A stretch of DNA of 34,067 nt from positions 1 to 34,067 of IMG/VR virus record IMGVR_UViG_3300034068_001472; one strand, written 5' to 3'. This DNA is from a virus. The position numbers and the translations under genes were made by a program. How positions within the stretch are numbered: the stretch's first letter is position 1; each line of letters begins with the position of its first letter. The notes beneath the pieces are model-generated. The model saw nothing but the letters and a program-made list of their open reading frames with translations, did not search any database and was not told the origin of the DNA. This document shows, one piece after another, positions 1-30,697 of this stretch.

Positions 1-631
1 TCCAGCTACTCCCGATGTCGAAAGCTCTCCATTATCTGACAAAGCATATAACTTAATTTTAAAATATGAAGTGGGAGGAGGGTCTGCTTACTATAATAAA
101 GCTTTAAAAAATCCATGTTATCCCGGCGGGGCTTCAGGTGTGACTATCGGGATAGGTTATGATCTTGGCTATAATACAAAAGCTCAATTCACTAATGATT
201 GGAAATCTGTTATATCAGATAAAACATTCAGTCGTTTAGAAGCTTGCTTAGGAGCTAAGAGCGCACTTGCTAAACAACTAGTTCGTAATGTTAAAGACAT
301 TGAAATTGATTGGGAAAGTGCATCTGTTGTATTCAAAAAGGAAACTCTTCCTAGATTCATAAAAGAAACACTGAAGGCGTTCCCTAATGCTGACTCATTA
401 CACCCTGATGCATTCGGAGCGCTTGTATCAATTGTATTCAATAGAGGAGCGTCTGTATCTGGTAGTAGTAGAGTAGAGATGGCTAATATACGAGCGCTGA
501 TTCCAAGTAAGAACTATAAGAAAATTGCTCAAGAAATACGTGACATGAAGCGTTTGTGGGTTGGAAAAGGCTTAGATGGATTATTAAAAAGACGCGACGA
601 AGAAGCTAATCTTGTTGACTCTTGTGCTTGA
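1..631 (+). CDS. Endolysin, lysozyme/pesticin-type muramidase (5' partial)
   Basis: The reading frame is open to the left edge (first full codon at 2), so the GTG at 71 is not the start. The visible protein opens with a Pro/Ser-rich linker (PATPDVESSP) followed by KYEVGGGSAYY and GVTIGIGYDLG, the signature of GH24/pesticin-like muramidases: a catalytic Glu in YEVGGG and a downstream Thr/Asp region. The linker suggests a separate N-terminal domain, perhaps cell-wall binding, outside the window. It would cleave peptidoglycan glycan strands at the end of infection. It lies just upstream of two small genes and a holin, a normal lysis cassette. The fold assignment is fairly secure; the exact glycosidase family is inferred. 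Confidence 0.85.
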   Translation, partial: PATPDVESSPLSDKAYNLILKYEVGGGSAYYNKALKNPCYPGGASGVTIGIGYDLGYNTKAQFTNDWKSVISDKTFSRLEACLGAKSALAKQLVRNVKDIEIDWESASVVFKKETLPRFIKETLKAFPNADSLHPDAFGALVSIVFNRGASVSGSSRVEMANIRALIPSKNYKKIAQEIRDMKRLWVGKGLDGLLKRRDEEANLVDSCA

Positions 632-635
632 GCTG

Positions 636-642
636 TTAAATA
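636..642 (+). promoter_or_regulatory. Late-type TTAAATA element before the 651 gene
   Basis: TTAAATA lies 8 nt before the ATG at 651, overlapping the end of the endolysin gene. The same element precedes nine other starts in the window. Confidence 0.45.
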
Positions 643-650
643 TTCACGCT

Positions 651-848
651 ATGATTAAGAGAATCAATGACAACACTGTAAAGCTTTGCTGCAATGGCAA
701 AGGATGCCCAACCGTAACTGATCTTGGAAATGGACTGGTTGAAATCGTCGATGATGATGGAAACAAGATCACCGTTAAGAAAGAAGAAGCTGCTTTGATT
801 TCAGATGGTGTGAAGACCTTGAATGAAGAAATGTTAATCCTTGGATGA
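651..848 (+). CDS. Small hypothetical protein in lysis module
   Basis: A 65-aa protein starting MIKRINDN. An upstream in-frame start at 612 lies inside the endolysin gene and is less likely, because the late-type TTAAATA element sits just before the ATG at 651. The middle holds a CCNGKGCP motif and an acidic VDDDGNKITV strand, so it looks like a small beta-rich cytosolic protein. It overlaps the next gene by 4 nt (ATGA), suggesting coupled translation. I do not recognise a family. Confidence 0.65.
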   Translation: MIKRINDNTVKLCCNGKGCPTVTDLGNGLVEIVDDDGNKITVKKEEAALISDGVKTLNEEMLILG

Positions 849-1114
849 CGCTGGTATATGATACTATAGTAATGTTGGGGATATGCTTCATATTAAAATA
901 TGGAGCTATCCTTAATTTTATTAGAAATCCTCTGAAGCGTATAAAATTCTTTAATGAATTATTCTCATGTGCATTGTGTATGGGATTTTGGATAGGTCTG
1001 TCATACAGTGTTATAACACCCTATGATATAACCTTTTCATTCTACACGGCTGCGATTTGTTGGATAGCAGATTACGGTGTGCAAATTATTCAAAAACATT
1101 TATATCCTGATTGA
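845..1114 (+). CDS. Small membrane protein with CALC motif (DUF1360-like)
   Basis: An 89-aa protein with about three hydrophobic segments (residues ~5-20, ~40-58, ~66-80). The FFNELFSCALCMGFWIG region resembles small phage membrane proteins of the DUF1360 type, which carry a C-x-x-C-x-G-F-W signature. Its position between endolysin and holin suggests a role in lysis or membrane modification; this is inferred from context. The start is fixed by the ATGA overlap with the 651 gene. Confidence 0.6.
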   Translation: MTLVYDTIVMLGICFILKYGAILNFIRNPLKRIKFFNELFSCALCMGFWIGLSYSVITPYDITFSFYTAAICWIADYGVQIIQKHLYPD

Positions 1115-1167
1115 TTTTTGGATAAATTTTTTTAAATAGTGTTTTCTTTTTTTATAGTATTCTAACA

Positions 1168-1174
1168 TTAAATA
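1168..1174 (+). promoter_or_regulatory. Late-type TTAAATA element before holin
   Basis: TTAAATA lies 8 nt upstream of the holin ATG in a short AT-rich gap (1115-1182). No Shine-Dalgarno-like sequence is visible. Confidence 0.5.
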
Positions 1175-1182
1175 ATACTATA

Positions 1183-1500
1183 ATGGAACCGGATAAAAAC
1201 TTAATCAAAGACTTCTTAGAGGGGGGTTGGATCATCATGATGATCGGGGGGTCTGCGATGTTAGCGAGACTTCTGGCATCCAATACTGCAATAACGATTC
1301 TTGAGCATTTTAAGAAGATAATAAGCGCAGCCATCGCATCAGGAATAGCGTGGTTTATTTTGAAAGATGTACAAGGCTGGGAGCTTTATAAAGCGATTGC
1401 CTACGGTATTGTGGGCGTAATCTCCCCGGAGATCATAGACGGTATCATAAAGCTTGGTAAGAAGTTTGCCAAGAATCCAGAGAAGATGCTTAAAAAATAA
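1183..1500 (+). CDS. Holin, LydA/holin superfamily III-like
   Basis: A 105-aa protein with a charged N-terminus, hydrophobic segments at residues ~14-30, ~45-60 and ~70-85, and a Lys-rich tail (KKFAKNPEKMLKK). The GVISPEIIDGI motif near the last membrane segment is typical of LydA-type phage holins. It would form inner-membrane lesions that release the endolysin. Its place directly downstream of the endolysin supports this. The antisense ORF across this gene is a shadow. Confidence 0.75.
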   Translation: MEPDKNLIKDFLEGGWIIMMIGGSAMLARLLASNTAITILEHFKKIISAAIASGIAWFILKDVQGWELYKAIAYGIVGVISPEIIDGIIKLGKKFAKNPEKMLKK

Positions 1501-1502
1501 TA

Positions 1503-2360
1503 TCAGTCTTCTCCATAGTAATCAACAGCATCCTGCACAGTCTCTAGTATTGCGCTTTCTTCGGATGGTTCTAATCTTGAATATATTACATCAGGGGAAT
1601 CGTGTCGTTTGATTCTAAACATACCTACAATTTTGGGATTTCCTGAAAACCCTATTGTCTTTTTAATTCTACCACTATCTAATTCCAATCCAGATGGTGT
1701 ATTTTTAGATTTAGATTTAAATCTTAGATTACTGATAGAATCGAAAAATTCTCTGAACCAAGATTCGGTATCATTTTTTCCGTAATGTTCTAGAAAACGA
1801 CGCACCATTTCAGGATCTGCATTTTTATTTTTGTCTATACCTCTGAATAATACGATGGGTGCGTTTTTTATTAACCGAATTTGGAATTGTTTTCTTTGGT
1901 AATCATTGAGTGTGAATCTTTTCTTTATATTCTTTAAAAATTCAACCAGTACAAGCCCAAGAGCTTTTGAATTTTGGAAATCACTATCGACAAAATCTGC
2001 AAACTCCGACACGATTTTATCAGGGTCAAAAGAAGGGATCGCGTCTACAAGACTATCTTCATCCATGAAGATTTGATTGTATCCTCTGGACTCCACAACA
2101 ACAAGACCGAAGTTGTTCAACTTGATGATATCCCAGTCAATAACAGTCATTGCGAGTTCTCTTAAATCTCTTCCAACATATATCCCATCGTACGATCTTT
2201 TGGATTGTGCTATATCTGAAGAAACATCTTCAAAATTTGATAATTTATTAGGAATCAATCCTTGTGATAATATACTTTTTAGATTGTTTCCATCTGTTAT
2301 ATGGTAAACTAATTCTCTAGGCTTCGCAGCCTCTTCAAAATACTGTAAGAATGTTATCAC
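1503..2360 (-). CDS. ADP-ribosyltransferase-fold-like protein, possible capsid-packaged effector
   Basis: A 285-aa protein starting with GTG at 2360, 6 nt after a late-type TTAAATA. The N-terminus MITFLQYFEE fits the capsid-targeting pattern shared by its neighbours, but its cleavage site (FEE) is the weakest match. After residue ~17 comes ELVYHITDGNNLKSILSQGL, then YDGIYVG: the LYHxT...IL..GL arrangement of KptA/ADP-ribosyltransferase-fold proteins. The C-terminal part has IGFSGNPKIVGMF, DVIYSRLEPSEESA and an acidic tail. T4 packages an ADP-ribosyltransferase (Alt) with its DNA, so a similar role is plausible. The fold is inferred from short motifs. Confidence 0.55.
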   Translation of the reverse strand: MITFLQYFEEAAKPRELVYHITDGNNLKSILSQGLIPNKLSNFEDVSSDIAQSKRSYDGIYVGRDLRELAMTVIDWDIIKLNNFGLVVVESRGYNQIFMDEDSLVDAIPSFDPDKIVSEFADFVDSDFQNSKALGLVLVEFLKNIKKRFTLNDYQRKQFQIRLIKNAPIVLFRGIDKNKNADPEMVRRFLEHYGKNDTESWFREFFDSISNLRFKSKSKNTPSGLELDSGRIKKTIGFSGNPKIVGMFRIKRHDSPDVIYSRLEPSEESAILETVQDAVDYYGED

Positions 2361-2366
2361 TTTATA

Positions 2367-2373
2367 TATTTAA
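2367..2373 (-). promoter_or_regulatory. Late-type TTAAATA element (minus strand)
   Basis: The minus strand reads TTAAATA, then 6 nt, then the GTG start at 2360. Confidence 0.5.
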
Positions 2374-2393
2374 TTTTCTATATCACCAAGGTG

Positions 2394-3665
2394 TTATTTA
2401 TACATGAGTTGTATGATTTTCTGTCTGTGATATCTCGGCAGCTTTAGAAAGTCTTCCACGCCAGTGGCCCATAGTTCATCATCATTGCTCATACCGTAGC
2501 TATCAGACCATTTCACAAGATCTTTTGCCACATCTCTAATATATTGCTTGCTCTTACCAGAGAAGTTTTTGTAACTGTCAGCTTCGTCTCTCTTTGTCAT
2601 TTTTAACACATGATGAATCAGATTCAATAATAACGCAACGACATCGGGGGATACAAATACATCAAACACCAAATCGTATCTCTTTCGGTATGACTCTATT
2701 TTTTGGCCATTAGCCTGATACCTATCTCTATCCCCCATATACGCAACATCATACAAACTCATTTCAGGATGTTCCTCGATATCCCATTTGATATCGCTAT
2801 TATCATAACTGATTTTTTTATCGACATGTGGTAACAGAAGAGGAGCATAATGAACAGCTACTTTGTTAATGAATTTCTTGTATTTATACATTTCATTTTT
2901 CAAAGATGAATCTATGATGACGCTTCCCTCAGTGATGATCTCTTCCAATGTTTTCACCAAATAAGATTCTCTTTCAGCGTATCGCTTTTCTGAACTCTCT
3001 CTCCAATATCCATCTGGGTCAAAATCGGGATCTGGGTAACTCATGGTGTATAGGGAATGATACACATTAGAAATATATCGCCAGATGTTATCTACAATGT
3101 ATGTGAATGCATCGTCTTCTAATTTGTCACTATACTCATCTCGATCTATAAAAGGATAATCCGCATTTAAATAATCATATGCATCTGGAGGGGTTGTGTA
3201 AGACTCAATCGAATAATCCCGTATCAAATCGTAATACTCTTTAACTGCTTTTTTAAATGCTTTGGAGTTATTAAACATCCAAAGGTGCGCCCATTCGTGA
3301 ACAATGAGTTTGATTAGATAATCAGCGTTTTTGATCATGTTAGCACCGATTGCCATATATTTTCCTGTGGGTTGCGCATATCCCCCAACACCACCCCCCG
3401 TGTTTTGATTTACACGTTGAGATAAATCGCGTATCACTATATTGGAATGCATGGAAGAAAACCCCATCTTGGCTATGCTATTCCTAGCTTCTTTGCACGC
3501 TTCCTGCAAACTGTTTTTATATGAGTCTATCTGATCCGCGTTTGTTTGCGCTAGTTGTTTGTCTATGAAAATAGAAAACATGGGAACATCCATTAAATGA
3601 ATGTGGTCTTTCCTATCTCTGAACCTAGATTCGTTGAGACGGTAAAATTGTTTAAATGACAGCAT
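2394..3665 (-). CDS. HExxH zinc metalloprotease-like protein with capsid-targeting-like N-terminus
   Basis: A longer frame begins at 3698, but the internal ATG at 3665 is preferred: TTAAATA precedes it by 5 nt, and starting there gives MLSFKQFYRLNE, matching the N-terminal motif of the neighbouring late genes, with an L-N-E site like those cut by the T4 prohead protease. The protein is 423 aa. LIKLIVHEWAHLWMFNN (about residues 125-140) contains HEWAH, a zinc-binding HExxH. The remainder is rich in Tyr/Asp and fits no family I know. A protease delivered with the genome could process host proteins; that role is inferred. Confidence 0.65.
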   Translation of the reverse strand: MLSFKQFYRLNESRFRDRKDHIHLMDVPMFSIFIDKQLAQTNADQIDSYKNSLQEACKEARNSIAKMGFSSMHSNIVIRDLSQRVNQNTGGGVGGYAQPTGKYMAIGANMIKNADYLIKLIVHEWAHLWMFNNSKAFKKAVKEYYDLIRDYSIESYTTPPDAYDYLNADYPFIDRDEYSDKLEDDAFTYIVDNIWRYISNVYHSLYTMSYPDPDFDPDGYWRESSEKRYAERESYLVKTLEEIITEGSVIIDSSLKNEMYKYKKFINKVAVHYAPLLLPHVDKKISYDNSDIKWDIEEHPEMSLYDVAYMGDRDRYQANGQKIESYRKRYDLVFDVFVSPDVVALLLNLIHHVLKMTKRDEADSYKNFSGKSKQYIRDVAKDLVKWSDSYGMSNDDELWATGVEDFLKLPRYHRQKIIQLMYK

Positions 3666-3670
3666 ATTTG

Positions 3671-3677
3671 TATTTAA
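3671..3677 (-). promoter_or_regulatory. Late-type TTAAATA element supporting the 3665 start
   Basis: The element lies between the first possible ATG (3698) and the second (3665), 5 nt before the latter. A transcript starting here could not encode the longer form. Confidence 0.5.
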
Positions 3678-3691
3678 TTTATAAGGTCCAC

Positions 3692-4216
3692 TCACCATTT
3701 TCTGCTCAATATAAATTGGCTTTCCCCTTCACCCATATCCTTGAACAGATCATCTAACTCGAAGTTTTGAATCATCGGAACCAATCTCTTTTTATAAAGC
3801 TTTGTTCTATTCGCTCCCTTGGATGTGAATGTCAGTAATCGGATTTCGTTGTTATCATCAAACTCTATGAATTGATTTATGATTTCAATCACGGTGGCCA
3901 ACACTCTAAACGCATCACCTCCCTTTGTCAATTCAATATCCAGCTTTGTCTCGCCTCTGATATCCTGTCCAGATTCAACACCAAAGGCTATTTCCCAAAC
4001 ACTGTCGTCGTATCTGCTTTGCCTAGCATACCACAGATACGGCACTCCTGCATCCGTTTTGAATCGTATAATTTGCACAGGAGTCAACACCTCATCCATG
4101 TAGGTTTCTCCTGTATCATCGTCTTCCTTCTCAATGGCTTCGGTGGTAAAGGTGTTTTTATATCTATAGGGATTGTCAAAACTCTCCGATAAAAAATAAG
4201 TTTTAAAAGGTAACAT
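3692..4216 (-). CDS. Hypothetical late protein with capsid-targeting-like N-terminus
   Basis: A 174-aa protein starting MLPFKTYFLSE, with F4, Y7 and an L-S-E site at 9-11, the pattern shared by the flanking late genes. The body has alternating strands (VQIIRFKTDAGVPYLWYARQ, VWEIAFGVESG) and a helix with EIINQFIEF, like phage proteins of unknown function with a beta-sandwich core. It is transcribed from the divergent 4217-4256 promoter region together with the downstream protease gene. Its stop lies inside the longer version of that gene but just upstream of the preferred 3665 start. Confidence 0.65.
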   Translation of the reverse strand: MLPFKTYFLSESFDNPYRYKNTFTTEAIEKEDDDTGETYMDEVLTPVQIIRFKTDAGVPYLWYARQSRYDDSVWEIAFGVESGQDIRGETKLDIELTKGGDAFRVLATVIEIINQFIEFDDNNEIRLLTFTSKGANRTKLYKKRLVPMIQNFELDDLFKDMGEGESQFILSRKW

Positions 4217-4256
4217 GTATCCTTTATTTAGAGTATTTTAAATTAAATACCTCCAT
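4217..4256. promoter_or_regulatory. Divergent pair of late-type promoters
   Basis: A 40-nt gap holds CTAAATA reading left (4225-4231, 8 nt before the ATG at 4216) and TTAAATA reading right (4243-4249, 7 nt before the ATG at 4257). Both genes carry the capsid-targeting-like N-terminus. Confidence 0.55.
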
Positions 4257-6311
4257 ATGGTGACTTTCAAAACTTTTTTTAATCTGATACTAGAGGATCT
4301 GAAATCTTCTATAAATCAAGCTAATAAAATTTTAACAAGCAATGAATTTTCTCCAGAAGAAGCGTCTCAAGCTGTTGATAAAATCAAAGGCATAATGGAT
4401 GAGGTTGGAAGAGGGGTGTCAAACCAACAGAAGCGTTTCAACACAGACTCGAATATTCCTATATTGTCTTACATATTACTAGCACTTAAAGATGCGGGGG
4501 GAGATCCTTATGCGAAACTAAAAAGAGAATATCAAACTTATCTGGCTTCAGAAGAAGCCACTAATAAAAAAATACTCACAATCGCGTTTGATAAATTAAG
4601 AAACGAAATACAAGGAAAAAAACTGTTTAAACCATCTCCTGAAAAAACACAAATCATTGTTTCGTGGGGAACTAATTTAATAGAAGAAATTCACAAGTAC
4701 ATCAAGGCAGATAAAACAGAGTCTCCTGTTGTCAGAAGCAACGAAGATGTTGTCTATGAAAACAATGACATCGTTGTATATAGAGCGGATTCCAAAAATA
4801 AATGTATTGCTTATGGCGCTGGTTCAAACTTGTGCATATCTGTAAAAGGAGGAGGAAATTACTACTGGGCTTATCGCATGGGAGAAATGCGCCAACGCCA
4901 AGGACTGGATGATTATGGTATGACAACTTATTTTGTGTTTTGGAAAGACACAAATGAAAGAATCCTAATTGATGCACTCGGAGACGAAGATGGACCTGCC
5001 AACAAGTATTCTTGGAACAACATCGAAAAAGACGGAACATATGACAATGTCGATGCAGACATAACTCCAGAAGAACTGATCAAAATGCACCCAGAGCTGC
5101 AAGAACCATTTTCCAACAACGTATTCCAATTCGTGCCTTATGGAGAGGATGAGAAGCGATTCAAATATATTCAAGATAATATATCCGATATCAGTAACAG
5201 TGAATTGAAAACCTTGAAAGACTATGAAATGTTTTTAGAAGGTGCAGATCCAGATGATTATGTCAATAATATATTCATTAGGTTTAGAACTTGGAGTCAT
5301 TTAATCGAAAGTAATAAGTTGAGCGAAGAAGAAGCCAGAACTCTTGTGAAGAAATATGCTGGGTTGAATTTTAATCTAGATATAGAAACCCAACAAGAGC
5401 TTCTTTCTCCATCCGATAGAAATTGGTATTTGAATACTGTTATACCAAAAAGAAAAGATGCGGAAGATATTTTAGGTTATATGCGCAGCGTGAGTTGGGA
5501 GAACATACCCGATAAGTTATATGAAATATTATCGGTTATGGACGGCGGGGATGAAATCTATACCATATTAGGAGATGTTTTAAATACCGACGATTATTAT
5601 CTGAACAATAACTTTTCTCCAAACGACGCATATAATATAATAATTGGAAATATTGATGGCGAGCTATTTGTTAAACTGCAAAAATTTATTGAAAAATTAA
5701 ACAACCCCGACGCTTTATTACAAAGTGTGATAGTTCATTATAAAAAATCTAATAAAAAAATTCCAAAGCAATTTTATAAATTAATAGTTCAATATCCAAA
5801 GGCTTCTTATAACGCGGCATTGTATTGGAAGCTGATTAGAAATAATAACATACCAAACATTCTTATAAAAAGCGCTATAAAAGATCCAGTATATGCTTTG
5901 AAAGTTGCAGAAACATTATTTGAGTTCGACAACAGGGGATACAAAAATATACCAGATTACATAAAGCGTGCAGTGTTTAAAGATCCCAAAACAAAATATC
6001 AATTTATAGACCGTGGTGTGGATGGTTCAGGATTTGAGAATTATCCAAGTTCTGAAATTGCGGATCTTTTTTCAAAACTAGATAATGGATATAGGTACGC
6101 GCAAGGCAATGATGGATTCGGGGTATTCAATAGAAAAAATAATAGCGGAGATCAAAGGGTGCGACGAGCGATATATAAAAACATAATGAACAATTCTAAA
6201 AAAGCGTATGATCATTTTTTTAATTATCGAAGTGAATTAAACAAAAACGGTGCGTTTTATAAAATGGTAAAAAGAGCCGCTGATAAATTTATAGCTGAAC
6301 GCGGCTGGTGA
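4257..6311 (+). CDS. 684-aa late protein, possible packaged internal protein
   Basis: Starts MVTFKTFFNLILE, with F4, F7 and an I-L-E site at 11-13, like its neighbours. Residues ~165-285 form a compact domain with CIAYGAGSNLCIS, GGGNYYWAYRMG, TTYFVFWKD and ERILIDALGDEDG, resembling a domain seen in phage and bacterial proteins that contains a WCxS/YCT-type signature. The C-terminal half has helical repeats with recurring LI...P..A.KVAE-like units (residues ~430-680). I do not know its activity. Large size, a late promoter and the N-terminal motif suggest a head-internal or injected protein. Confidence 0.65.
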   Translation: MVTFKTFFNLILEDLKSSINQANKILTSNEFSPEEASQAVDKIKGIMDEVGRGVSNQQKRFNTDSNIPILSYILLALKDAGGDPYAKLKREYQTYLASEEATNKKILTIAFDKLRNEIQGKKLFKPSPEKTQIIVSWGTNLIEEIHKYIKADKTESPVVRSNEDVVYENNDIVVYRADSKNKCIAYGAGSNLCISVKGGGNYYWAYRMGEMRQRQGLDDYGMTTYFVFWKDTNERILIDALGDEDGPANKYSWNNIEKDGTYDNVDADITPEELIKMHPELQEPFSNNVFQFVPYGEDEKRFKYIQDNISDISNSELKTLKDYEMFLEGADPDDYVNNIFIRFRTWSHLIESNKLSEEEARTLVKKYAGLNFNLDIETQQELLSPSDRNWYLNTVIPKRKDAEDILGYMRSVSWENIPDKLYEILSVMDGGDEIYTILGDVLNTDDYYLNNNFSPNDAYNIIIGNIDGELFVKLQKFIEKLNNPDALLQSVIVHYKKSNKKIPKQFYKLIVQYPKASYNAALYWKLIRNNNIPNILIKSAIKDPVYALKVAETLFEFDNRGYKNIPDYIKRAVFKDPKTKYQFIDRGVDGSGFENYPSSEIADLFSKLDNGYRYAQGNDGFGVFNRKNNSGDQRVRRAIYKNIMNNSKKAYDHFFNYRSELNKNGAFYKMVKRAADKFIAERGW

Positions 6312-6332
6312 TATCAAGGAATACTAAACATA

Positions 6333-6339
6333 TTAAATA
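6333..6339 (+). promoter_or_regulatory. Late-type TTAAATA element
   Basis: TTAAATA is followed by 6 nt and the ATG at 6346. Confidence 0.5.
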
Positions 6340-6345
6340 AAGACA

Positions 6346-7176
6346 ATGCGATCCTTTTCAGAATTTTATAAAATACAAGAAGCCAGAGTCATAAATGCCA
6401 ATGACCAAAAGGTTCCATTAAAAGACAATGAAACTATCAGAGTGTATCATGCGTTTAATAATCCACAGGATCTTTACGATATCTTGGAATACGGAACATC
6501 TGGAAAGCTAAGAGCAAAAAGAATATATTCATACGAAGCCAACAACAACCCGAAGGGATTCTTCGTGTCCATAGATTTCAAAACAGTGAAAGGCTTCGGG
6601 CAATACATCATGGAGTTACACACACGGGTTTCGGATTTAGAAGCGCCAGTGTGGCCCTCTGGATCTTATACAGTGCAGGGAGAATATTCGAAGTATTGGG
6701 ATGAAGAAAACCCAAGAGAAAAGGGTACAGAAGCAGCGCGGGAAAAAGCGAAACAATCAAAAGAAGATTATATACGAAACAGTGACAGACCTGAACTGGC
6801 AGACAGCTTGTACGATAGCTATGAAAAACAGGCATTGTTTGTGGGGGAGTTAGATGCAAATTCCATCAGAGCAATTTGGGTGAACAAAGACATGAAAAAG
6901 GATGGTAGGTATTCCACTTACGATAGAATGTCAGTAAAGGAATTTTTAAAAACACATCCATCCAAACCATCATCCGAACACCGATTTAAAATATTCACAC
7001 CAAGGGAAGAGTTTGATGTGGATGTAATGTTGAAGCGATTCAACCAGAGATTCGATAGAATGTCAACAGATGATATCTTGAGTGGATTAAAATATGTGGA
7101 TGATCAAGGATTAGCGGTGCATTTTTGGCCAAAGCAAATGGCAGCGGTGAAAAAGTTTATAAAAACTATAAAGTGA
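6346..7176 (+). CDS. ADP-ribosyltransferase-fold-like protein, possible capsid-packaged effector
   Basis: A 276-aa protein starting MRSFSEFYKIQE, with F4, F7 and an I-Q-E site at 10-12, a close analogue of the T4 internal-protein leader MKTYQEFIAE. After it come IRVYHAFNNPQDLYDILEYG, AKRIYSYEANNNPKGFFVS and FGQYIMELHT: a V-Y-H strand, an Ile-Leu..G helix end and a G-F-F-V-S strand, an arrangement typical of ART-fold proteins. The middle has DLEAPVWPSGSYTVQGEY and a charged helix. Whether it transfers ADP-ribose is unproven. The distinctive middle also recurs, as I recall, in unannotated phage proteins. Confidence 0.6.
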   Translation: MRSFSEFYKIQEARVINANDQKVPLKDNETIRVYHAFNNPQDLYDILEYGTSGKLRAKRIYSYEANNNPKGFFVSIDFKTVKGFGQYIMELHTRVSDLEAPVWPSGSYTVQGEYSKYWDEENPREKGTEAAREKAKQSKEDYIRNSDRPELADSLYDSYEKQALFVGELDANSIRAIWVNKDMKKDGRYSTYDRMSVKEFLKTHPSKPSSEHRFKIFTPREEFDVDVMLKRFNQRFDRMSTDDILSGLKYVDDQGLAVHFWPKQMAAVKKFIKTIK

Positions 7177-7569
7177 TCCAAATTCTCTTTAGGTAAAACC
7201 GTAAAAATATTAAAAAAATATTTTTTGATAAGGGGGCATTAGGGGGAAACAACAAAAAATACTAAAAATATTTTTAATGCGGGCATTAGGAAAAAAGGTT
7301 GAAAAATACTAAAAATATTTTTCCATGGCCCCCCCGACATATGTCGAAGTTATGTCATACATAACCAAATGATAACATGAAGTTATGGCATATCTCATCA
7401 CATATGTCAAAGATATGCCATCATCTATGACATGTCTACAGCACAACTCACCCATCCTGCACAGACATGTCATCACATATGTCATCAGTCATGGCATGCC
7501 ATATCTGAACGCAACTCACCCTACCCCGCACAGACATGCACAGGATAGGGTGAGATAGATCAGGAGATA
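7177..7569. other. Non-coding switch region between late and early modules, dense palindromes
   Basis: No credible gene is seen. The left part (7195-7325) has A/T-rich repeats of ACTAAAAATATTTTT type and two GGGCATTAGG-like copies, perhaps terminators for the 6346 gene. The right part is packed with palindromes: CGACATATGTCG (7335-7346), an 11-bp inverted repeat ATGGCATATCT/AGATATGCCAT (7385-7395 and 7411-7421), GACATGTC (7429-7436), and further CACATATGTC and GGCATGCC copies. Two copies of an imperfect ~30-bp direct repeat ending CAGACATG occur near 7441-7469 and 7507-7538. It may be an operator region or replication origin. Confidence 0.5.
7385..7421. repeat. 11-bp perfect inverted repeat
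   Basis: ATGGCATATCT and AGATATGCCAT are exact reverse complements separated by 15 nt that themselves contain CACATATGTC. This could be an operator for a dimeric protein or a hairpin. Confidence 0.6.
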
Positions 7570-7788
7570 TCAGTCCGCTGGGAATAGCACAATGGCAAAC
7601 CTATCCCGAAGATAGATACCGCTACGGCTTCCCACCATAACTTTAAGATACCGACTCATGACGGATACGCCCGTGACCCGATAGACTTGTCCTAAGATAA
7701 GGCGCGGGTTATTACCACTATCTGTGCAGATAACTGGATCACCGATAGCGAGGCTGAAGCGATTTTTGCGGATAGCTTGTGCGGACAT
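7570..7788 (-). CDS. Small hypothetical protein
   Basis: A 72-aa basic protein, MSAQAIRKNRF at the N-terminus, with repeated beta-strand-like segments (GDPVICTDSG, LGQVYRVTGVSV, YLKVMVGSRSGIYL), consistent with a small SH3-like barrel. It follows the 31-aa membrane peptide gene by 6 nt. I do not recognise a family. Confidence 0.6.
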   Translation of the reverse strand: MSAQAIRKNRFSLAIGDPVICTDSGNNPRLILGQVYRVTGVSVMSRYLKVMVGSRSGIYLRDRFAIVLFPAD

Positions 7789-7950: not shown

Positions 7951-8292
7951 TTATTGACCAGCCAATTTCTTGAGTTCGGCAATCTGCCGTTCCAGAGCGG
8001 CGAGCTTGCTTTCACGCTTGCGCCCCTCCCGCCCGTCTTCAATCGCCTTGGAAACCACCTCGAAGCGGTCAGAACCATCTTCCGCGAAGCGGTGATCAGT
8101 CGCGACCGTCAGAAGCACCTTGAATGCTTCCATGTCGTTTTTAAGGCCGAATTCCGCTTTCAGGTCTTGAACGAATTCCTTGTCAGAGGGGAATACGACA
8201 AGCGGGAATTGCTTCACTTTCGTGGCACCAGTGACGGCATCGGAAGTCACTTCGTTCTCATTGTTGGCGGATTCGTTGTTTTCGTTGTTCAT
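7951..8292 (-). CDS. Ribbon-helix-helix-like DNA-binding protein candidate with C-terminal coiled coil
   Basis: The ATG at 8292 is chosen over 8340 because the strong sigma70 promoter at 8330-8359 would start RNA near 8323. The protein is 113 aa. An Asn/Glu-rich leader is followed by KQFPLVVFPSDKEF, a beta-strand then helix DKEFVQDLKAEFG, a turn LKND, and a second helix MEAFKVLLTVATDH, matching a ribbon-helix-helix layout. The tail KLAALERQIAELKKL is a leucine-heptad coiled coil. It lies directly beside the 9-copy AATAAAACGTTA array, making it the best candidate binder of that box. The fold is read from pattern only. Confidence 0.55.
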   Translation of the reverse strand: MNNENNESANNENEVTSDAVTGATKVKQFPLVVFPSDKEFVQDLKAEFGLKNDMEAFKVLLTVATDHRFAEDGSDRFEVVSKAIEDGREGRKRESKLAALERQIAELKKLAGQ

Positions 8293-8329: not shown

Positions 8330-8359
8330 ACTATAGGCATGGACGGGAATGAATGTCAA
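8330..8359 (-). promoter_or_regulatory. Consensus sigma70 promoter for the RHH-like gene
   Basis: The minus strand reads TTGACA (8354-8359), an 18-nt spacer, then TATAGT (8330-8335). It is the best host-type -35/-10 pair I noticed, and it has no AATAAAACGTTA box between its elements. The first box of the array starts 37 nt upstream of the -35. This suggests immediate-early expression with possible autoregulation by the array. Confidence 0.75.
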
Positions 8360-8395: not shown

Positions 8396-8621
8396 AATAA
8401 AACGTTAAGCGCGAGCGCAGGGCCGAGTGGTTCCTAACGTTTTATTATTCCCCTCCCGCACTAACGTTTTACTATTGGATTTTGAATCAATAAAACGTTA
8501 GACATCATGCCCGCCTAACGTTTTATTGATCTCCCCCTAACGTTTTACTATTGTTCGAGCCTAACGTTTTATTGATCTGTTACCCTAACGTTTTATCAAT
8601 GCGCAGCCCTAACGTTTTATG
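8396..8621. repeat. Nine-copy array of the AATAAAACGTTA box
   Basis: Boxes start at 8396(+), 8435(-), 8462(-, one mismatch), 8489(+), 8516(-), 8538(-, one mismatch), 8562(-), 8586(-, one mismatch) and 8610(-, one mismatch). The spacing is 39, 27, 27, 27, 22, 24, 24, 24 nt. Unlike the promoter-associated copies, none is followed at 3 nt by TAnnnT, so this is a binding array and not a promoter series. Candidate roles: autoregulatory operator, iteron-type origin, or a stoperator-like titration site. The gap from 8293 to 8694 holds only this array, the promoter and a hairpin. Confidence 0.85.
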
Positions 8622-8642: not shown

Positions 8643-8678
8643 CCGCTGGGAGAGATCAGTTATAATCTCTCCCAGCGG
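8643..8678 (-). terminator. 14-bp hairpin after the 23-aa gene
   Basis: CCGCTGGGAGAGAT (8643-8656) pairs perfectly with ATCTCTCCCAGCGG (8665-8678). There is little U tract on the minus strand, so it may end transcription or protect a 3' end. Confidence 0.55.
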
Positions 8679-8694: not shown

Positions 8695-8766
8695 TTACTT
8701 ACCGAACTCCCGCGCAAGAGCATCAATGACTTCCTCGGGACCGTCTGTAGGGATTGTGATTTGCAT
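8695..8766 (-). CDS. 23-aa peptide with its own box promoter and hairpin
   Basis: Encodes MQITIPTDGPEEVIDALARE plus FGK. It has a box at 8783-8794, a -10 TACAAT, an ATG 7 nt beyond it, and a strong hairpin 17 nt after the stop, so it is a complete transcription unit. The strand-then-helix pattern recalls the start of a ribbon-helix-helix or similar domain, but it is too short to be one. Confidence 0.5.
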   Translation of the reverse strand: MQITIPTDGPEEVIDALAREFGK

Positions 8767-8773: not shown

Positions 8774-8794
8774 ATTGTATCCTAACGTTTTATT
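8774..8794 (-). promoter_or_regulatory. Box promoter for the 23-aa gene
   Basis: AATAAAACGTTA, GGA, TACAAT, 7 nt, ATG at 8766. Confidence 0.7.
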
Positions 8795-10548: not shown

Positions 10549-12069
10549 TTACTCTTCCACCGTGTTAGCCCGCTTTGTAGGAACATCGGTGATATGAACA
10601 AGGGTGTTCTTGGCGCGGGTAATAGCGACATACGCCAGATTATCTTCCTGAACCTTCATCCAATCCTGAGTAGCATACTTGCTAGGCTGGAACTGAGCCA
10701 TTCCAAGAATAAAGCAACGCTCGAACTCAAGACCCTTGCTCTTATGAATAGAACTGAGGGTGACGACATTGGGAAGATTGTAATCATCGTTGTCGCTGAA
10801 CATATCAGAGATAAGCTTGCGAAGGCTGTTGAGATCATGCTTGCCAAGACTCTGGCAACGCTCAATAAGAATCAGCATGGTTTCATACTTATCTTCAAGG
10901 TTGGCAAGCTTGGCACCCTTGGCCTTTTCCATCTCCCGATTGAAATGATTCTGAAGCCGCAGGGTGAAAGTAGCAAGATCGTTCACACGCCACTTATTAG
11001 TAAGAGTGACAAGGTTTTTGCCGATGTCCTTGCCTTCGATACGGCAACCGATACCCTGACGAATAAGAGCAAAGGCAAGGCTAACAAGAGGCGCATTATT
11101 ACGGCAGATAACACCGTCCGCTTTGCTAAGATTCAAGCTCTCAGCGGTCTTAATGAAATCCTCATGACGCATATCACTGATGGTGCCTTCGCCATTACCT
11201 TCGAAGGCAACAATATCGGGAACATACTTTTGAGCAGCGGCGATGATATTATGTCCACAACGGTAGCAGACACTAAGAGGAAGCTCGACAGCCTTGAACA
11301 TATCCCTGATGAGGTTCATGCTGTCATTCTCAGCCCCGGTGAAACCATAGATAGCTTGTCCCGGATCTCCAATAGCAAGCAGCCGACCGGTTTCGCCAAG
11401 AAGCTTTTCCATCATAAGCTTGCGAACGACATTAGTATCCTGAGCTTCATCCACAATGATCCAATCATACTTGGTGAAGTTATGATTGAACAGGAGGGGA
11501 AGATAGATCATATCGTCGAAGTCGATATTCTTAACATCACGGTTATTAAGAACCAGCACCTGCTTGCAGACCTCGACAAGATCAGCGATATCAATATCCA
11601 TGTCGATATCAATATCCTGATGCTTGATGATATTAACCCAAGCTTCGGTATCATCAATAGATGGGCAACCATCAATCCCGAAGCCAGAATTCTTAGCGAA
11701 AGAAACAAGCTTCATGATAGTGCTACGGCACTTCATAAGAGGTCCGCTCTCGGTGAAAAGCTGAACGATATTATAAACCTTGCCAGTGAAAACCTTGGCA
11801 CCCGGCTTATTCTTGAGAAACACCTTCATGCCTTCGCTGTGGAAAGTAGCAGCAGATGCATGCGGGCAACCCATAGTGGAAAGGCGAGATTGAAGCTCAA
11901 CAACAATCTTCTTATTGAAAGCGAGCATAAGAACGCTGCCAGCCATTCTAGTAATACCTTGGATGGCGGTGGTGGTTTTACCAGAACCAGCCTTGGCATT
12001 AACAATGGCGTTACCAATGCCGTTCTCGATCCAGTTGAAAATGTCGATCTGATAATTGCTAGGAGTCAT
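10549..12069 (-). CDS. SF1A UvrD/Rep-family DNA helicase
   Basis: A 506-aa ATP-dependent DNA helicase. Motifs in order: Q-motif region (TPSNYQIDIFNW), Walker A NAKAGSGKTTTA (residues ~25), LMLAFNKK, Walker B IIVDEAQD (~200), motif III GDPGQAIYGFTGA, motif IV VCYRCG, motif V LSSIHKSKGLE (~430) and motif VI YVAITRAKNTL near the C-terminus. It is shorter than bacterial UvrD (about 700 aa), lacking large 1B/2B insertions, as is common in phage enzymes. A role in replication, repair or recombination is likely. The start is 60 nt from its box promoter. The long plus-strand ORF over it is a shadow. Confidence 0.9.
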   Translation of the reverse strand: MTPSNYQIDIFNWIENGIGNAIVNAKAGSGKTTTAIQGITRMAGSVLMLAFNKKIVVELQSRLSTMGCPHASAATFHSEGMKVFLKNKPGAKVFTGKVYNIVQLFTESGPLMKCRSTIMKLVSFAKNSGFGIDGCPSIDDTEAWVNIIKHQDIDIDMDIDIADLVEVCKQVLVLNNRDVKNIDFDDMIYLPLLFNHNFTKYDWIIVDEAQDTNVVRKLMMEKLLGETGRLLAIGDPGQAIYGFTGAENDSMNLIRDMFKAVELPLSVCYRCGHNIIAAAQKYVPDIVAFEGNGEGTISDMRHEDFIKTAESLNLSKADGVICRNNAPLVSLAFALIRQGIGCRIEGKDIGKNLVTLTNKWRVNDLATFTLRLQNHFNREMEKAKGAKLANLEDKYETMLILIERCQSLGKHDLNSLRKLISDMFSDNDDYNLPNVVTLSSIHKSKGLEFERCFILGMAQFQPSKYATQDWMKVQEDNLAYVAITRAKNTLVHITDVPTKRANTVEE

Positions 12070-12119
12070 AATGAGTGGAGTCAGAGGTGATCTGCAAGCT
12101 ACCGTCGCTTGCTGGCATC

Positions 12120-12140
12120 ATCTTAGTCTAACGTTTTATC
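12120..12140 (-). promoter_or_regulatory. Box promoter of the helicase gene
   Basis: GATAAAACGTTA (one mismatch), GAC, TAAGAT, then a ~50-nt leader to the ATG at 12069. It is the first member of the four-box array. Confidence 0.65.
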
Positions 12141-12249
12141 CCTAGAACCCAGCGGGATTTTAATAATAAAACGCAGATCGGGTCTGGTTCTTATTATTGC
12201 GTAACGTTTTATTATTAGATCTCTGGCGTTTTTCAATAATAAAACGTTG
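12129..12249. repeat. Four boxes in alternating orientation at 36-37 bp spacing
   Basis: Boxes start at 12129(-), 12165(+, three terminal mismatches), 12202(-, perfect) and 12238(+, one mismatch). The spacing is 36, 37, 36 nt with strictly alternating strands. Only the first has a -10. The region 12070-12385 holds no gene. Confidence 0.7.
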
Positions 12250-12275
12250 CTGTTCATGGTATGATTAAAACCGAC

Positions 12276-12291
12276 TCTCCCTCTAGGGAGA
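12276..12291 (-). terminator. Short hairpin in the helicase upstream gap
   Basis: TCTCCC and GGGAGA form a 6-bp stem with a 4-nt loop. On the minus strand GGTTTTAATC follows within a few nt. Confidence 0.35.
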
Positions 12292-12351
12292 AATCGACTT
12301 CAATCGTTGATATATCAAGGTTTCTAAAAAATCTCTAACAGAAAAAATAAT

Positions 12352-12377
12352 GGGCAGTTTATTGAGATGCCCAGCTC
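12352..12377 (-). repeat. Conserved GAGCTGGGCA hairpin, copy 2
   Basis: Same stem and loop as at 9573. Here the minus strand continues ATTATTTTTTCTG, so this copy looks like a genuine terminator for the 12386 gene. Confidence 0.65.
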
Positions 12378-12385
12378 GATTTCCT

Positions 12386-13084
12386 TTATGCCGGTTCCAA
12401 TACGAAACCGCTTTCGTCTTTCTTAGCAAGACCCTTCTCTTTAAGACCGATAATTTTACCAGAACCATCCAAGAAACGAAGATCCGTTTCGTCCCCATCA
12501 ATAACTTCATGACCGTAGTATTGAGAAGGAAGAGACTTGCGGAAAACCATAGCGACATTGCCGCCCGACTTAAGAAACGCCAAAGCAATTGCGCCGTTAC
12601 TTTCCGAGCGGGAGAAAGTGAGATGATAGTTTTTCGGCATGTCGCCATTCACAAAACTAGTCATACGCTTCGGGCTCTTGGTGTAATCGTAAAACTGAAC
12701 ATCAGGGAAGGCTTCAAAAATAGAAGATCCGTTCAACTTAATACTTTCCCAAGGAAGATCAGAGGTAAGATTAAGACGAAAGCAAGGTTGCATATTATTT
12801 TTCTTAGCCTTGCGAACTTCCCGTGCCACTTCCTCCCAGAGCATAACCATGAAGATGGTTTTATTCTTAAAGAACATTTGGGTTTTAGCAATACGGGCTT
12901 TCTGAACGCTTGACATAGCGCCCCGTCCCGCTGTATTAAGACAAGCGGCAGCACATCCAACCGATTGATCTTTACATACATTAAAGCCAGAAAGATTGGC
13001 AGGTGCAAGGTGGATTCCAAAAGTAATCCAGCCAAGTTTTTCGCCTTTGCGGATCTTTGCGTTTGATTTGGTGAGTAGGGCCAT
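12386..13084 (-). CDS. GP88-family phage protein
   Basis: A 232-aa protein with the features I associate with the phage gene product 88 family: GWITFGIHLAPANLSGFNVC, the CKDQSVGCAAACLNTAGRG cysteine cluster, KARIAKTQMFF, RLNLTSDLPWE, FYDYTKSPKR, YHLTFSRSE and NVAMVFR. The function of the family is not known to me; the Cys cluster suggests metal or Fe-S binding. Its leaderless box promoter fixes the start (16 nt). It is followed by a GAGCTGGGCA hairpin and preceded by the 13160 gene. Confidence 0.75.
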   Translation of the reverse strand: MALLTKSNAKIRKGEKLGWITFGIHLAPANLSGFNVCKDQSVGCAAACLNTAGRGAMSSVQKARIAKTQMFFKNKTIFMVMLWEEVAREVRKAKKNNMQPCFRLNLTSDLPWESIKLNGSSIFEAFPDVQFYDYTKSPKRMTSFVNGDMPKNYHLTFSRSESNGAIALAFLKSGGNVAMVFRKSLPSQYYGHEVIDGDETDLRFLDGSGKIIGLKEKGLAKKDESGFVLEPA

Positions 13085-13090
13085 GCGAGT

Positions 13091-13111
13091 ATCTTAGTCT
13101 AACGTTTTATT
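13091..13111 (-). promoter_or_regulatory. Box promoter, leaderless arrangement
   Basis: AATAAAACGTTA, GAC, TAAGAT, 6 nt, ATG at 13084. Confidence 0.75.
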
Positions 13112-13123
13112 GAGAGAAGGAGG

Positions 13124-13149
13124 GGGCAGTTTATTGAGATGCCCAGCTC
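13124..13149 (-). repeat. Conserved GAGCTGGGCA hairpin, copy 3
   Basis: Same hairpin, between the end of the 13160 gene and the box promoter of the GP88 gene. Confidence 0.6.
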
Positions 13150-13159
13150 GATTGTATGA

Positions 13160-13669
13160 TTAACCTTCGATCAGTTCGTTATAATCATCCGTGCCAAGGA
13201 TATTATCAGCGGAAACCGTGAAACATTCAAGAGGCTTTTCCTCAGGATTAAGAAGCTTATTAGCTTCCGATGGAGTAAGATAACTTGCAAAGGTATTCTT
13301 ATCGACTTCGGCATTGTTGACGAAATACTTCACCTTCGGGATATTACCAACAGATGGGTAAAGACGAATATATTCCTTGTCTTTATGAGAGATGACATAA
13401 GGGAATTGCTTCCATTCACCCCAAGGAAGACTTTGCACTTCGCCGCGTTCTCCGTTAGCAATACCCTCTTTAACACTAGAGAGATTGGCAAAGTCAATAC
13501 CAGCACGAACAACGGCATTAGTAACCTTTTCGAGAATGATACCCGCTTTCTTATGAGCGGATGCAGGAGTAGGGTTTGACTTCCAAAAAACCTTAACAAA
13601 GTTACCTTTGCAATTAAGAATCTTTTCGGTGATTTGAAGAGCGGTCAGGGATGGAGTGTTTGTTTGCAT
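13160..13669 (-). CDS. Hypothetical protein next to GP88
   Basis: A 169-aa protein starting MQTNTPSLTALQITEKILN, with NFVKVFWKSNPTP, a helix KAGIILEKVTNAVVRAGIDF, GEWKQFPYVISHKDKEYIRL and an acidic C-terminus. It looks like a compact alpha/beta protein and may work with the GP88 neighbour. No family recognised. Confidence 0.65.
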   Translation of the reverse strand: MQTNTPSLTALQITEKILNCKGNFVKVFWKSNPTPASAHKKAGIILEKVTNAVVRAGIDFANLSSVKEGIANGERGEVQSLPWGEWKQFPYVISHKDKEYIRLYPSVGNIPKVKYFVNNAEVDKNTFASYLTPSEANKLLNPEEKPLECFTVSADNILGTDDYNELIEG

Positions 13670-13679
13670 TACGATGATG

Positions 13680-13700
13680 ATCGTAGCCTAACGTTTTATT
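13680..13700 (-). promoter_or_regulatory. Box promoter
   Basis: AATAAAACGTTA, GGC, TACGAT, 10 nt, ATG at 13669. Confidence 0.7.
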
Positions 13701-13712
13701 GGGAAACTTCAA

Positions 13713-13739
13713 GGGCAGTTTAATGAGAATACCCAGCTC
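13713..13739 (-). repeat. Conserved GAGCTGGGTA hairpin, copy 4 (diverged)
   Basis: Like the other three, but one stem position has changed and the loop is one nt longer. Confidence 0.5.
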
Positions 13740-13751
13740 GATTTTTATTCT

Positions 13752-13952
13752 TTAGTTTTTGTATGAAATATAACCTCGGGCGATATTAAGAAAACAATCG
13801 TCTCTCATAGTAAGCTCGATATACTCTTTAGCTTTCTGTAGAGCTTCAACGAAGTCTTTAAGAATATCTTTAGGCGTGATACGCATAAGAGAATAGATAT
13901 CTTCGTAATCAATACAATCTTCGAGTTTCTTTTTAAATGCTTGCGTTGTCAT
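13752..13952 (-). CDS. Small helical hypothetical protein
   Basis: The start MTTQAFKKKLEDCIDYEDIY at 13952 is chosen because the upstream ATGs lie in the -10 hexamer. The protein is about 66 aa, nearly all helix. Function unknown. Confidence 0.6.
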   Translation of the reverse strand: MTTQAFKKKLEDCIDYEDIYSLMRITPKDILKDFVEALQKAKEYIELTMRDDCFLNIARGYISYKN

Positions 13953-13959
13953 CGACATC

Positions 13960-13980
13960 ATCCTACCCTAACGTTTTATT
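13960..13980 (-). promoter_or_regulatory. Box promoter, near-leaderless
   Basis: AATAAAACGTTA, GGG, TAGGAT, 7 nt, ATG at 13952. Confidence 0.75.
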
Positions 13981-19086: not shown

Positions 19087-19968
19087 TTAATCGAGAGCTT
19101 TGAAAATATGAGCAATTACATCCACAGTCCATCCATTACCAAGACACTTCTTAGCCTTTGGAGAACTGATAACAGAGGTATAACCATCTGGAACAGTTTG
19201 CAATCTTTCGCATTCAGTTCTGGTTAGATTTCTGTATCTGTTATTGAATCTCACCCACATGTTTCCATTGTTAGGATTTGTCCTGAGCGTGTTGGATTTG
19301 AGTCCTTTAATTTCTGACTTGTTATATGGATCACAAAAATCAGGAAGATCATCGGGAGCATACTTTTCCCATCCTTCTGGAAGATCAAACTTTACATTCA
19401 GAGAACTCTCATCATATTCATCACCCGGTGGCAACTCCAAGATATCGGATAGAACGATGTTATTATCCGCTGGTTGTGTGATGTTGGGAATGTTTGTCCA
19501 ATAGTATCTGACGCGGTTTTGTGCAGAAACAGAGGATGAGTTAATCATGATTGGCTCAACTCCAAGATACTTGGAAATGACATCCAGATATTCTTTCTTC
19601 ATGCGGACATTTTCCAACAAGAATTTAACATCAGGATTCACCAACCTAACTTCATTAAGAATCCTGACATACTCAAAGAATAACTTACTACGGGGATCTT
19701 CAAAGTTAAGTTGTTTACCTGCAAAGCTGAATCCCTGACAAGGGGAGCCTCCAATTAGAAGATGGATCTCAGGTAGATCTTCAGCTTTTACATCAGTAAC
19801 ATCTCCCAACTGAACTGTATTAGGATAGTTGTGCTGTGTAATCATGATAGCGTGCCTGTCAACTTCACTTGCGAAGTAAGTATCCACACTGATACCTGCT
19901 CGTTCAAGAGCAATCTGCCCGCAACCGATTCCATCAAACAGACTTAATACATTGATTCTCTTAGACAT
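19087..19968 (-). CDS. C5 DNA cytosine methyltransferase
   Basis: A 293-aa protein. Motif I is LSLFDGIGCGQIALERAG (residues ~8-25). The catalytic motif IV GSPCQGFSFAG contains the Pro-Cys nucleophile (~75). Motif VI is LLENVR, motif VIII SAQNRVRYYWTNIP, and motifs IX-X (RTECERLQTVPDGY and CLGNGWTVDVIAHI) are near the C-terminus. It transfers methyl from SAM to cytosine C5. No restriction partner is seen, so it is an orphan phage methylase, probably protecting the genome from host restriction. It is followed by another unit after about 65 nt containing the 19028 box. The recognition sequence cannot be told. Confidence 0.93.
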   Translation of the reverse strand: MSKRINVLSLFDGIGCGQIALERAGISVDTYFASEVDRHAIMITQHNYPNTVQLGDVTDVKAEDLPEIHLLIGGSPCQGFSFAGKQLNFEDPRSKLFFEYVRILNEVRLVNPDVKFLLENVRMKKEYLDVISKYLGVEPIMINSSSVSAQNRVRYYWTNIPNITQPADNNIVLSDILELPPGDEYDESSLNVKFDLPEGWEKYAPDDLPDFCDPYNKSEIKGLKSNTLRTNPNNGNMWVRFNNRYRNLTRTECERLQTVPDGYTSVISSPKAKKCLGNGWTVDVIAHIFKALD

Positions 19969-25641: not shown

Positions 25642-25686
25642 TTTGTTTTTAAATTATAGCACGATTATTTAATATGTCAATCGAAT

Positions 25687-28144: not shown

Positions 28145-29758
28145 TCAGAAATTTTTAGATACAATGTTCCTAATTTCCGATAGTGTGTATTCCTTCATAA
28201 TTTTACCGTTCTTGAAAACACATTTCAGTGCGCAATTTTTCACCTCATCCCAAGTGGCTTGATCCTTGAGAATAAACTCACCATCTTGTTCATAGACAGC
28301 AGTTAGACCCTTGGCACTCTTCTTCATACCGCTGTCAGTCTTGGGATCTTTGAAGATCTCAACACCAACACGCTGTCCATCCTTTAGAACTTCTCCATAG
28401 GTACTCTTAACAGCAAACATGTGAGTGTCCCGTGTGACAATGGCATCTCGGGTTACAGCACCTTGATAAGTGAAGCTACCAATACCGAAGACAACATTGG
28501 TGGAAGCAAACCCCTTATCAGCAAGACGCTGACAGATTTGTTCAGCACGCTCTAGAGTAATACTATCTCCGTAGATTGCTCCAATGTGACTATCAAGAAG
28601 CTTGTATCCAGTAGTGCTTTCGGTTCCTCCGAAGATTTCCCAAAGACACTGAACCATACCCTTGACTTCAAGTTCGGTTAGTTCATCACCCTTATATTGA
28701 CATTGGGCTATATACTTGTCACCGATAGTCAACTTAATATAAATCTTACCATCCTTACGAATGATTTCATCTTCAGTATAGCCTGTAACAATCTTAACTG
28801 GATCACCACTGTCAGGCCGAATCACAACCTTGCCATCACGGGCAAGAATCTTATCCTTGAGACGAACTAGTGTGCCATTATTAGGATCAACGACCCGCCA
28901 AAAATCATAGGTGTCACTGACAAGACTTACAATACCAGAAGGATATACTTCTGTAATCATACGCTCAAAATAAGCAAAATCATCAGGATTTCCATCCTCA
29001 TCATAAGTCGATCCCATGCAAGCCACTGAGTGTTCGGACGCTGCCACGCTGCCACCAATCAGTTCCTTCTCACAATCAGCATTGTAATATTCTTCAAGGA
29101 AATCAATTGCTGGTAGAGTATCAGTTCCAGTGAATGATAGAAGGTGAGCAGCACCACTCATACAAGCGGCTTCAAACCCAAAGTGACCACGGAAAGAGAA
29201 ATCATGCCCCTGCCACGGAACAAACCCAATAGCTTCAGGAGAAGTTTCCTTAGCCCACTTTTCAAAGATCTTACGATACATAACAGCAGTGGTAGCACTG
29301 GTACACGGACCCCAGATAGTAGTGGATAGAATGGTTTCAATGGCATTGGTTAGCCAGAAGAAACGAGCATCAGTGTTCCAGACAACAAAGGTAGGCACAC
29401 GAAGATTAACATTAGAACCTTCAGGCAAAGCCCAAATCTCCAGAGGAAGATATCCAAGAGCATGTAGATCACGGATGTGTTGATCTCCAACATTATTCAC
29501 TCCAAGATAACCAAGGAGACGACGACCATAACGAGCAGTGACAGTATCGAGAGGTAGATTGAAGAAGGTACGATTCCATTCTTCAATGAGATACTTCTTC
29601 ATGAAGTATTGAAGACCAAAGGTAATCACCTTATCCAAACCATCGACCCGTGTGCCACGGGGTGTAAGATTGGAGAAAACCAATTGGCTGTTGGTGGGAT
29701 ACTGACGACGGTGATCGACTTTATACCCATCGATTTGTAGAGGTGCTAGTGTATTCAT
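28145..29758 (-). CDS. nadV: Nicotinamide phosphoribosyltransferase
   Basis: A 537-aa protein, close to the usual ~490-500 aa. It joins nicotinamide and PRPP to make NMN in NAD+ salvage. Seen: SNLTPRGTRV and ITFGLQYFMKKYLIEEW at the N-terminus, FVPWQGHDFSFRGHFG, SVACMGSTYDEDG, VSLVSDTYDFWRVV, the RPDSGDPVKIVTGY phosphate-site segment, GAIYGDSITLERA and VVFGIGSFTYQGAVTRD. The last 33 codons differ strongly from the old tail at 27178, implying tail replacement when the endonuclease arrived. Tandem promoters (box and extended -10) lie upstream. PRPP synthetase is encoded nearby. Confidence 0.95.
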   Translation of the reverse strand: MNTLAPLQIDGYKVDHRRQYPTNSQLVFSNLTPRGTRVDGLDKVITFGLQYFMKKYLIEEWNRTFFNLPLDTVTARYGRRLLGYLGVNNVGDQHIRDLHALGYLPLEIWALPEGSNVNLRVPTFVVWNTDARFFWLTNAIETILSTTIWGPCTSATTAVMYRKIFEKWAKETSPEAIGFVPWQGHDFSFRGHFGFEAACMSGAAHLLSFTGTDTLPAIDFLEEYYNADCEKELIGGSVAASEHSVACMGSTYDEDGNPDDFAYFERMITEVYPSGIVSLVSDTYDFWRVVDPNNGTLVRLKDKILARDGKVVIRPDSGDPVKIVTGYTEDEIIRKDGKIYIKLTIGDKYIAQCQYKGDELTELEVKGMVQCLWEIFGGTESTTGYKLLDSHIGAIYGDSITLERAEQICQRLADKGFASTNVVFGIGSFTYQGAVTRDAIVTRDTHMFAVKSTYGEVLKDGQRVGVEIFKDPKTDSGMKKSAKGLTAVYEQDGEFILKDQATWDEVKNCALKCVFKNGKIMKEYTLSEIRNIVSKNF

Positions 29759-30345: not shown

Positions 30346-30349
30346 ATTA

Positions 30350-30689: not shown

Positions 30690-30697
30690 GTGTTTAT

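Follow-up and report, generated by a model that had tools for sequence, protein, structure and literature searches.

The DNA considered here, called the window in what follows, is IMG/VR virus record IMGVR_UViG_3300034068_001472, which has a length of 34,067 bases. Read leftward, the locus of interest comprises tRNA genes, a mini-ORF with a complete box promoter, a hairpin, an array of nine short repeats (boxes), a sigma70-type promoter and an ORF for a protein of 113 amino acids. The array extends from 8397 to 8620, with seven boxes on the minus strand and two (8397, 8490) on the plus strand. The features are listed below; L009 is a related contig.

8782..8793, minus strand: box of the complete promoter of the mini-ORF (AAAACGTTAGGATACAAT), given for contrast with the array boxes
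8695..8766, minus strand: mini-ORF of 23 codons (MQITIPTDGPEEVIDALAREFGK), the last gene with a complete box promoter before the array
8643..8678, no strand assigned: perfect hairpin of 14 bp that separates the array from the upstream mini-gene, with a terminator-like score on the plus strand only
8609..8620, minus strand: array box 9 (ATAAAACGTTAG)
8585..8596, minus strand: array box 8 (ATAAAACGTTAG)
8561..8572, minus strand: array box 7 (ATAAAACGTTAG)
8537..8548, minus strand: array box 6 (GTAAAACGTTAG)
8515..8526, minus strand: array box 5 (ATAAAACGTTAG)
8490..8501, plus strand: array box 4 (ATAAAACGTTAG), inverted
8461..8472, minus strand: array box 3 (GTAAAACGTTAG)
8434..8445, minus strand: array box 2 (ATAAAACGTTAG)
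8397..8408, plus strand: array box 1 (ATAAAACGTTAA), inverted with respect to most boxes
8330..8359, minus strand: sigma70-type promoter of the 113-aa gene (TTGACA-18-TATAGT, 11/12 match)
7951..8292, minus strand: 113-aa ORF without a recognised fold, candidate box-binding factor, 92% identical in L009

The sequence-only reading of this DNA had listed nine boxes, all of which were recovered where it had placed them. The 10-mer TAAAACGTTA is common to all nine; the exact 12-mer ATAAAACGTTAG, which had been thought to be kept throughout the array, occurs in six, those at 8397 (plus), 8461 (minus) and 8537 (minus) having one mismatch each. There are 35 copies of AAAACGTTA in the window, where 0.34 would be expected (the mean of 100 dinucleotide-preserving shuffles of the window; the maximum in any shuffle was 2). 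Stop codons interrupt all six reading frames across the array. The core-to-core steps are 37, 27, 29, 25, 22, 24, 24 and 24 nt. The run of 24-nt steps noticed earlier is thus real, while the 27-nt step mentioned along with it occurs once and the other steps are irregular (range 22-37). With this spacing, and with no common helical face found for the nine boxes (R = 0.21, all nine), the argument from regular steps to cooperative binding is weak.

The only contig found to cover the array locus, L009, has 95% DNA identity to the window over 9.1 kb that include the array, and encodes an identical mini-ORF peptide. In this one pair, on which the conservation of the array rests, 0 of 108 box positions have changed as compared to 13 of 118 linker positions (Fisher p = 0.0002), and all 13 linker changes fall 3' of the nearest box. 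The pattern bears on the origin of the array by duplication. A 48-nt period spans several of the boxes and points to tandem duplication, and the array could be a relic of such an event, i.e., a duplicated promoter segment that lost its -10 elements and has no present function. A relic is very unlikely, since the box positions are unchanged while the linkers vary.

The boxes outside the array reveal what the repeated element belongs to. At 22 of the 27 non-array AAAACGTT sites in the window, TAnnnT is present exactly 4 nt past the core, and the layout of this promoter class is a box, 4 nt, TAnnnT, 6 nt, and then usually the ATG itself. Its consensus is AATAAAACGTTAG, in which the box is nearly invariant. 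Three further non-array boxes have a near-miss -10 (AATAAT at 12203, TACAAA at 30708 and 31078) and two, at 10469 and 12241, have none. The stretches 30345-31109 and 32091-32855 of the window hold a tandem gene duplication of 370 bp, box promoter included, and a 63-nt tandem repeat encoding YEYDSFGN-type repeats. When the promoters of the window and of related contigs are pooled (n=54), the ATG is found exactly 6 nt after the -10 in 32, position -1 is C in 43, and position +1 is A in 44. Of the 22 pooled promoters that have the ATG elsewhere, 13 still have the C and 12 the A. The preference for C/A at -1/+1, even where the ATG is elsewhere, indicates that this is the likely start site. We infer that the box, located at about -26 to -15, is the upstream half of the promoter class, and that the majority of box-promoter transcripts should be leaderless.

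In the array, none of the nine boxes has a TAnnnT at the promoter offset, against 22 of the 27 boxes elsewhere. The absence had been noticed before, and it is correct for the array, but it is not an exclusive trait of the array boxes because five of the 27 others also lack a full TAnnnT. The proposal that the box can stand apart from the promoter and serves as a protein-binding site has gained ground: with boxes conserved amid changing linkers and TAnnnT missing from all nine, the array box is very probably such a site. A box that is kept where the -10 is lost is best read as a site for the factor that acts at the promoters. Nine clustered sites without promoter function could also form a passive sink, which titrates the factor and thereby delays or tunes the box promoters. 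We regard a sink as improbable: the window has 27 other boxes, so the capacity gained from nine more would be modest if these do not bind much more tightly, and the location beside a sigma70 promoter would be left unexplained.

What recurs in other related contigs is the promoter class and not the array, with 18 promoters in G002 (found by weight matrix), 11 in L016 and two in G011, and as a single box promoter ahead of a conserved 79-aa gene in each of G005, G008, L010 and L012. The gene content of these contigs is informative about their affiliation. L019 has gp32-, gp41-, primase-, clamp- and UvsX-like genes, and G011 has rIIA, rIIB, RNA ligase and a structural protein that is 53-55% identical to those of T4-like cyanophages, as well as a gene in common with the window that is 78% identical. 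Judged from these sequences, the contigs belong to an uncultivated clade within the T4 superfamily; the links between them are drawn from shared genes and the shared promoter rather than from a tree.

IMG/VR was scanned for pairs of boxes at a distance of 20-29 nt, and the 91 stretches obtained were all screened by box count; the 18 of the 91 with the most boxes or the most suggestive spacing contain other repeats, and none of these 18 has the promoter class. Examples are L041, with a repeat at a contig end, and L090, with TTACAAAACGTTAGAGAGAG. The latter is an unrelated contig, with many GTTACAAAACGTTAGAGAGAG repeats at 11394-13976 that have the AAAACGTTAG core in common. A genome scan with the promoter pattern gave six single matches, which were taken as chance. 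The papers listed by a full-text literature match of AAAACGTTA and phage were seemingly unrelated by title and abstract, and an earlier description is possible.

The closest functional parallel is the middle promoter of T4, in which dispersed phage-specific boxes likewise replace the -35 ahead of a sigma70-type -10, in front of non-late genes of a member of the same superfamily. The MotA box, (a/t)(a/t)(a/t)TGCTTtA, has its centre at -30, at a distance of 12+-1 bp from the -10 (PMC2988021), whereas the core AAAACGTT ends 4 bp before TAnnnT in 22 of 22 cases, is centred near -20 and is nearly invariant, and the consensus is AATAAAACGTTAG instead of wwwTGCTTtA. The downstream half does correspond to a sigma70-type element (TAnnnT in 22/27, C/A at -1/+1). 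Further differences from T4 middle promoters are that most starts look leaderless and that an array without -10s is present. The box thus appears to work like a MotA-type box, yet by sequence and spacing it is not one. T4-like cyanophages reportedly have no T4-like middle promoters and lack motA and/or asiA (PMC5780444).

The box core contains ACGT, and 36 of the 43 ACGT copies in the window are within boxes. Outside boxes, no tetramer is more depleted than ACGT in the window, G001, G002, L016, G005 and G008, and in G011 it ranks third; in the window, G002, L016, G005 and G008 together, 35 copies outside boxes were counted against 278 expected, with depletion in every flanking context. No such depletion was found in the 10-kb piece of T4 that was examined. 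The scarcity may reflect either selection against stray copies of the box core or a restriction enzyme that cuts ACGT. The tetramers GTAC, GGCC and CCGG are likewise low, which fits the restriction enzyme; in that case the boxes would retain their ACGT at a cost. The window also encodes a C5 cytosine methyltransferase (19087-19968, minus strand), which might bear on the ACGT in the boxes.

To the left of the array, the sequence-only reading had placed a sigma70 promoter, and this is borne out: TTGACA-18-TATAGT is present at 8359-8330 on the minus strand. Its counterpart in L009, TTGACA-18-TATATT, is conserved though the leader behind it has diverged. Since the window has three sigma70 matches of at least 11/12 and about 1.5 are expected by chance, position and conservation outweigh the score. 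As for the other two, one overlaps a box promoter and the perfect one serves tRNA-Met (TTGACA-16-TATAAT at 25653-25680, minus strand, immediately before the tRNA gene). With the array upstream of this good sigma70 promoter, a regulatory role of the array is a fair reading of the sequence. About 37 bp separate the -35 hexamer from the nearest box upstream, a distance at which repression would have to work by other means than simple blocking.

The same setting argues against stoperator action, in which sites halt the elongating polymerase when a repressor is bound. A phage genome with one asymmetric site in many copies is indeed reminiscent of cluster A mycobacteriophages (PMC9283540), and the stoperators of the L5 group are also asymmetric sites of 12-13 bp, some of them off promoters. 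Stoperators are sites for a temperate repressor and affect the transcripts that pass over them; they are within transcribed regions and oriented with transcription. In the present case, the majority of sites belong to promoters, and the array is intergenic, between a hairpin and an outward-pointing promoter, has two of nine boxes inverted, and has no annotated gene transcribed across it, although read-through is possible. The suggestion of stoperator-like sites is therefore disfavoured, and we consider it extremely unlikely.

The array is also at a border between genes with box promoters and genes with a late-type TTAAATA motif. In the region 1-7500, TTAAATA-N1-12-ATG is found 6 times against 1.05 expected and boxes are absent (0), whereas the region 8300-34067 has 2 against 1.7 expected and 36 boxes. 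A contig that continues the late side in a relative, G136, has 18 such sites against 2.1 expected, and 0 boxes. From this division one could envisage that the array insulates the box-promoter domain from the late-promoter domain or has an architectural role where they meet, but position is the sole basis of this idea and it is quite improbable.

Plasmid iterons are direct repeats with a spacing of about 20-24 bp by a possibly autoregulated Rep gene, and the array has some likeness to them. An iteron-type replication origin is the main rival to a control function, although rather unlikely. The factor or a replication protein would bind the repeats and open the DNA or recruit other components there, with the AT-rich segment at 7189-7322 as possible unwinding region. 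An origin would agree with direct repeats that cluster in non-coding DNA where two transcription domains meet, and with other repeats nearby. Between convergent genes, the window has three AT-rich 37-nt repeats (7189-7322) and a set of CATATGTC-type repeats (7337-7500), both of which have similar counterparts in L009 and L166. The latter is a second relative that was found via synteny of the gene at 7570-7788; its contig stops shortly after the 113-aa gene, on the downstream side. On the other side, the repeats are the promoter boxes themselves, which makes a separate initiator site needless as an explanation, and GC skew tracks gene direction with no clear extra signal. In contrast to plasmid iterons, the repeats double as promoter elements of the phage, and no Rep-like protein was found; the ORF beside the repeats is that of the 113-aa protein, in which no known domain was recognised.

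A precedent for an origin of this type could be T4 oriE, described with evenly spaced 12-nt repeats and dependence on an early promoter (PMC3016281). Like the array, oriE combines regular short repeats in 24-nt steps with neighbouring small early genes and an early-type promoter. However, the T4 repeats (L133 6403-6570, corresponding to T4 79402-79569) are in frame within gene 5, where they code for the VxGxxxxx octads of gp5. Coding can explain their 24-nt period, whereas the array is non-coding and identical to a promoter box. The review states that the T4 repeats had not been linked to origin activity (PMC3016281). Because its repeats are coding, oriE is a poor precedent.

The protein encoded next to the array had been labelled as ribbon-helix-helix (RHH)-like. 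It has no Pfam, PHROG or PADLOC family match, no RHH match in Pfam at E<=10, and no relative in the PDB. When its core was compared by hhalign with an alignment of RHH_1 (PF01402; profile built from 29 sequences), the score was 9.3, within the range of shuffles (median 8.0, up to 14.3). Monomer models are of low confidence (mean pLDDT of 64-66), with helices at 38-48 and 53-65, a long C-terminal helix and no strand; Foldseek gave nothing significant, the one weak match being VapB11 (prob 0.35, E 6.3). The RHH label should thus be dropped until tested. Three scans for homologues yielded only the L009 protein, and none was found in phage records.

The reading that we prefer, while holding it tentatively and with somewhat less than even confidence, is that the array is a set of stand-alone sites for the box-promoter factor and acts as a concentration-sensing feedback control region for the 113-aa gene. 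Feedback control is suggested by where the array lies: the promoter that follows it is of host type and belongs to an early-type gene. One factor, probably encoded by the phage, would bind promoter boxes and array boxes alike. Located at about -26 to -15, it would replace the -35 element ahead of a sigma-type -10; in the array, where the -10 is gone, it would bind but no transcript could start. Once the factor is abundant the array would be filled, and the output of the early sigma70 promoter of the 113-aa gene would be altered, in the simplest form as negative feedback that closes the early phase. We take as observed that the sites exist and are conserved, that their -10 is missing, that the promoter class is present as a sequence pattern and that a sigma70 consensus is adjacent. 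That the same factor acts at both kinds of site, that the 113-aa protein, which has no recognisable DNA-binding domain, is this factor, and in which direction regulation would go, we infer.

Close together in the window, on the minus strand, are genes for a nicotinamide phosphoribosyltransferase (28145-29758), a NADAR-domain protein (29821-30345) and a ribose-phosphate pyrophosphokinase (31106-32044), possibly a set for NAD repair or counter-defence.

The cluster is real and conserved, and probably serves as a control region for the gene-expression switch of the phage. The locus may bear on how T4 relatives outside the coliphages switch between gene classes. At least 22 promoters within 34 kb have this one box, which is found again in related contigs. 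The tight box-to-start geometry predicts that leaderless mRNAs are widespread in these phages. The separate array provides a clean bait for the box protein and a single locus at which a feedback or origin function can be addressed. It is conceivable, though we would call it doubtful, that in a clade of the T4 superfamily whose promoters have no MotA-type box, many leaderless promoters are switched on by an activator of the clade's own, bound at -26 to -15 and against the -10, and that the amount of this activator is sensed via a nine-site array without -10s that controls a host-type early promoter.
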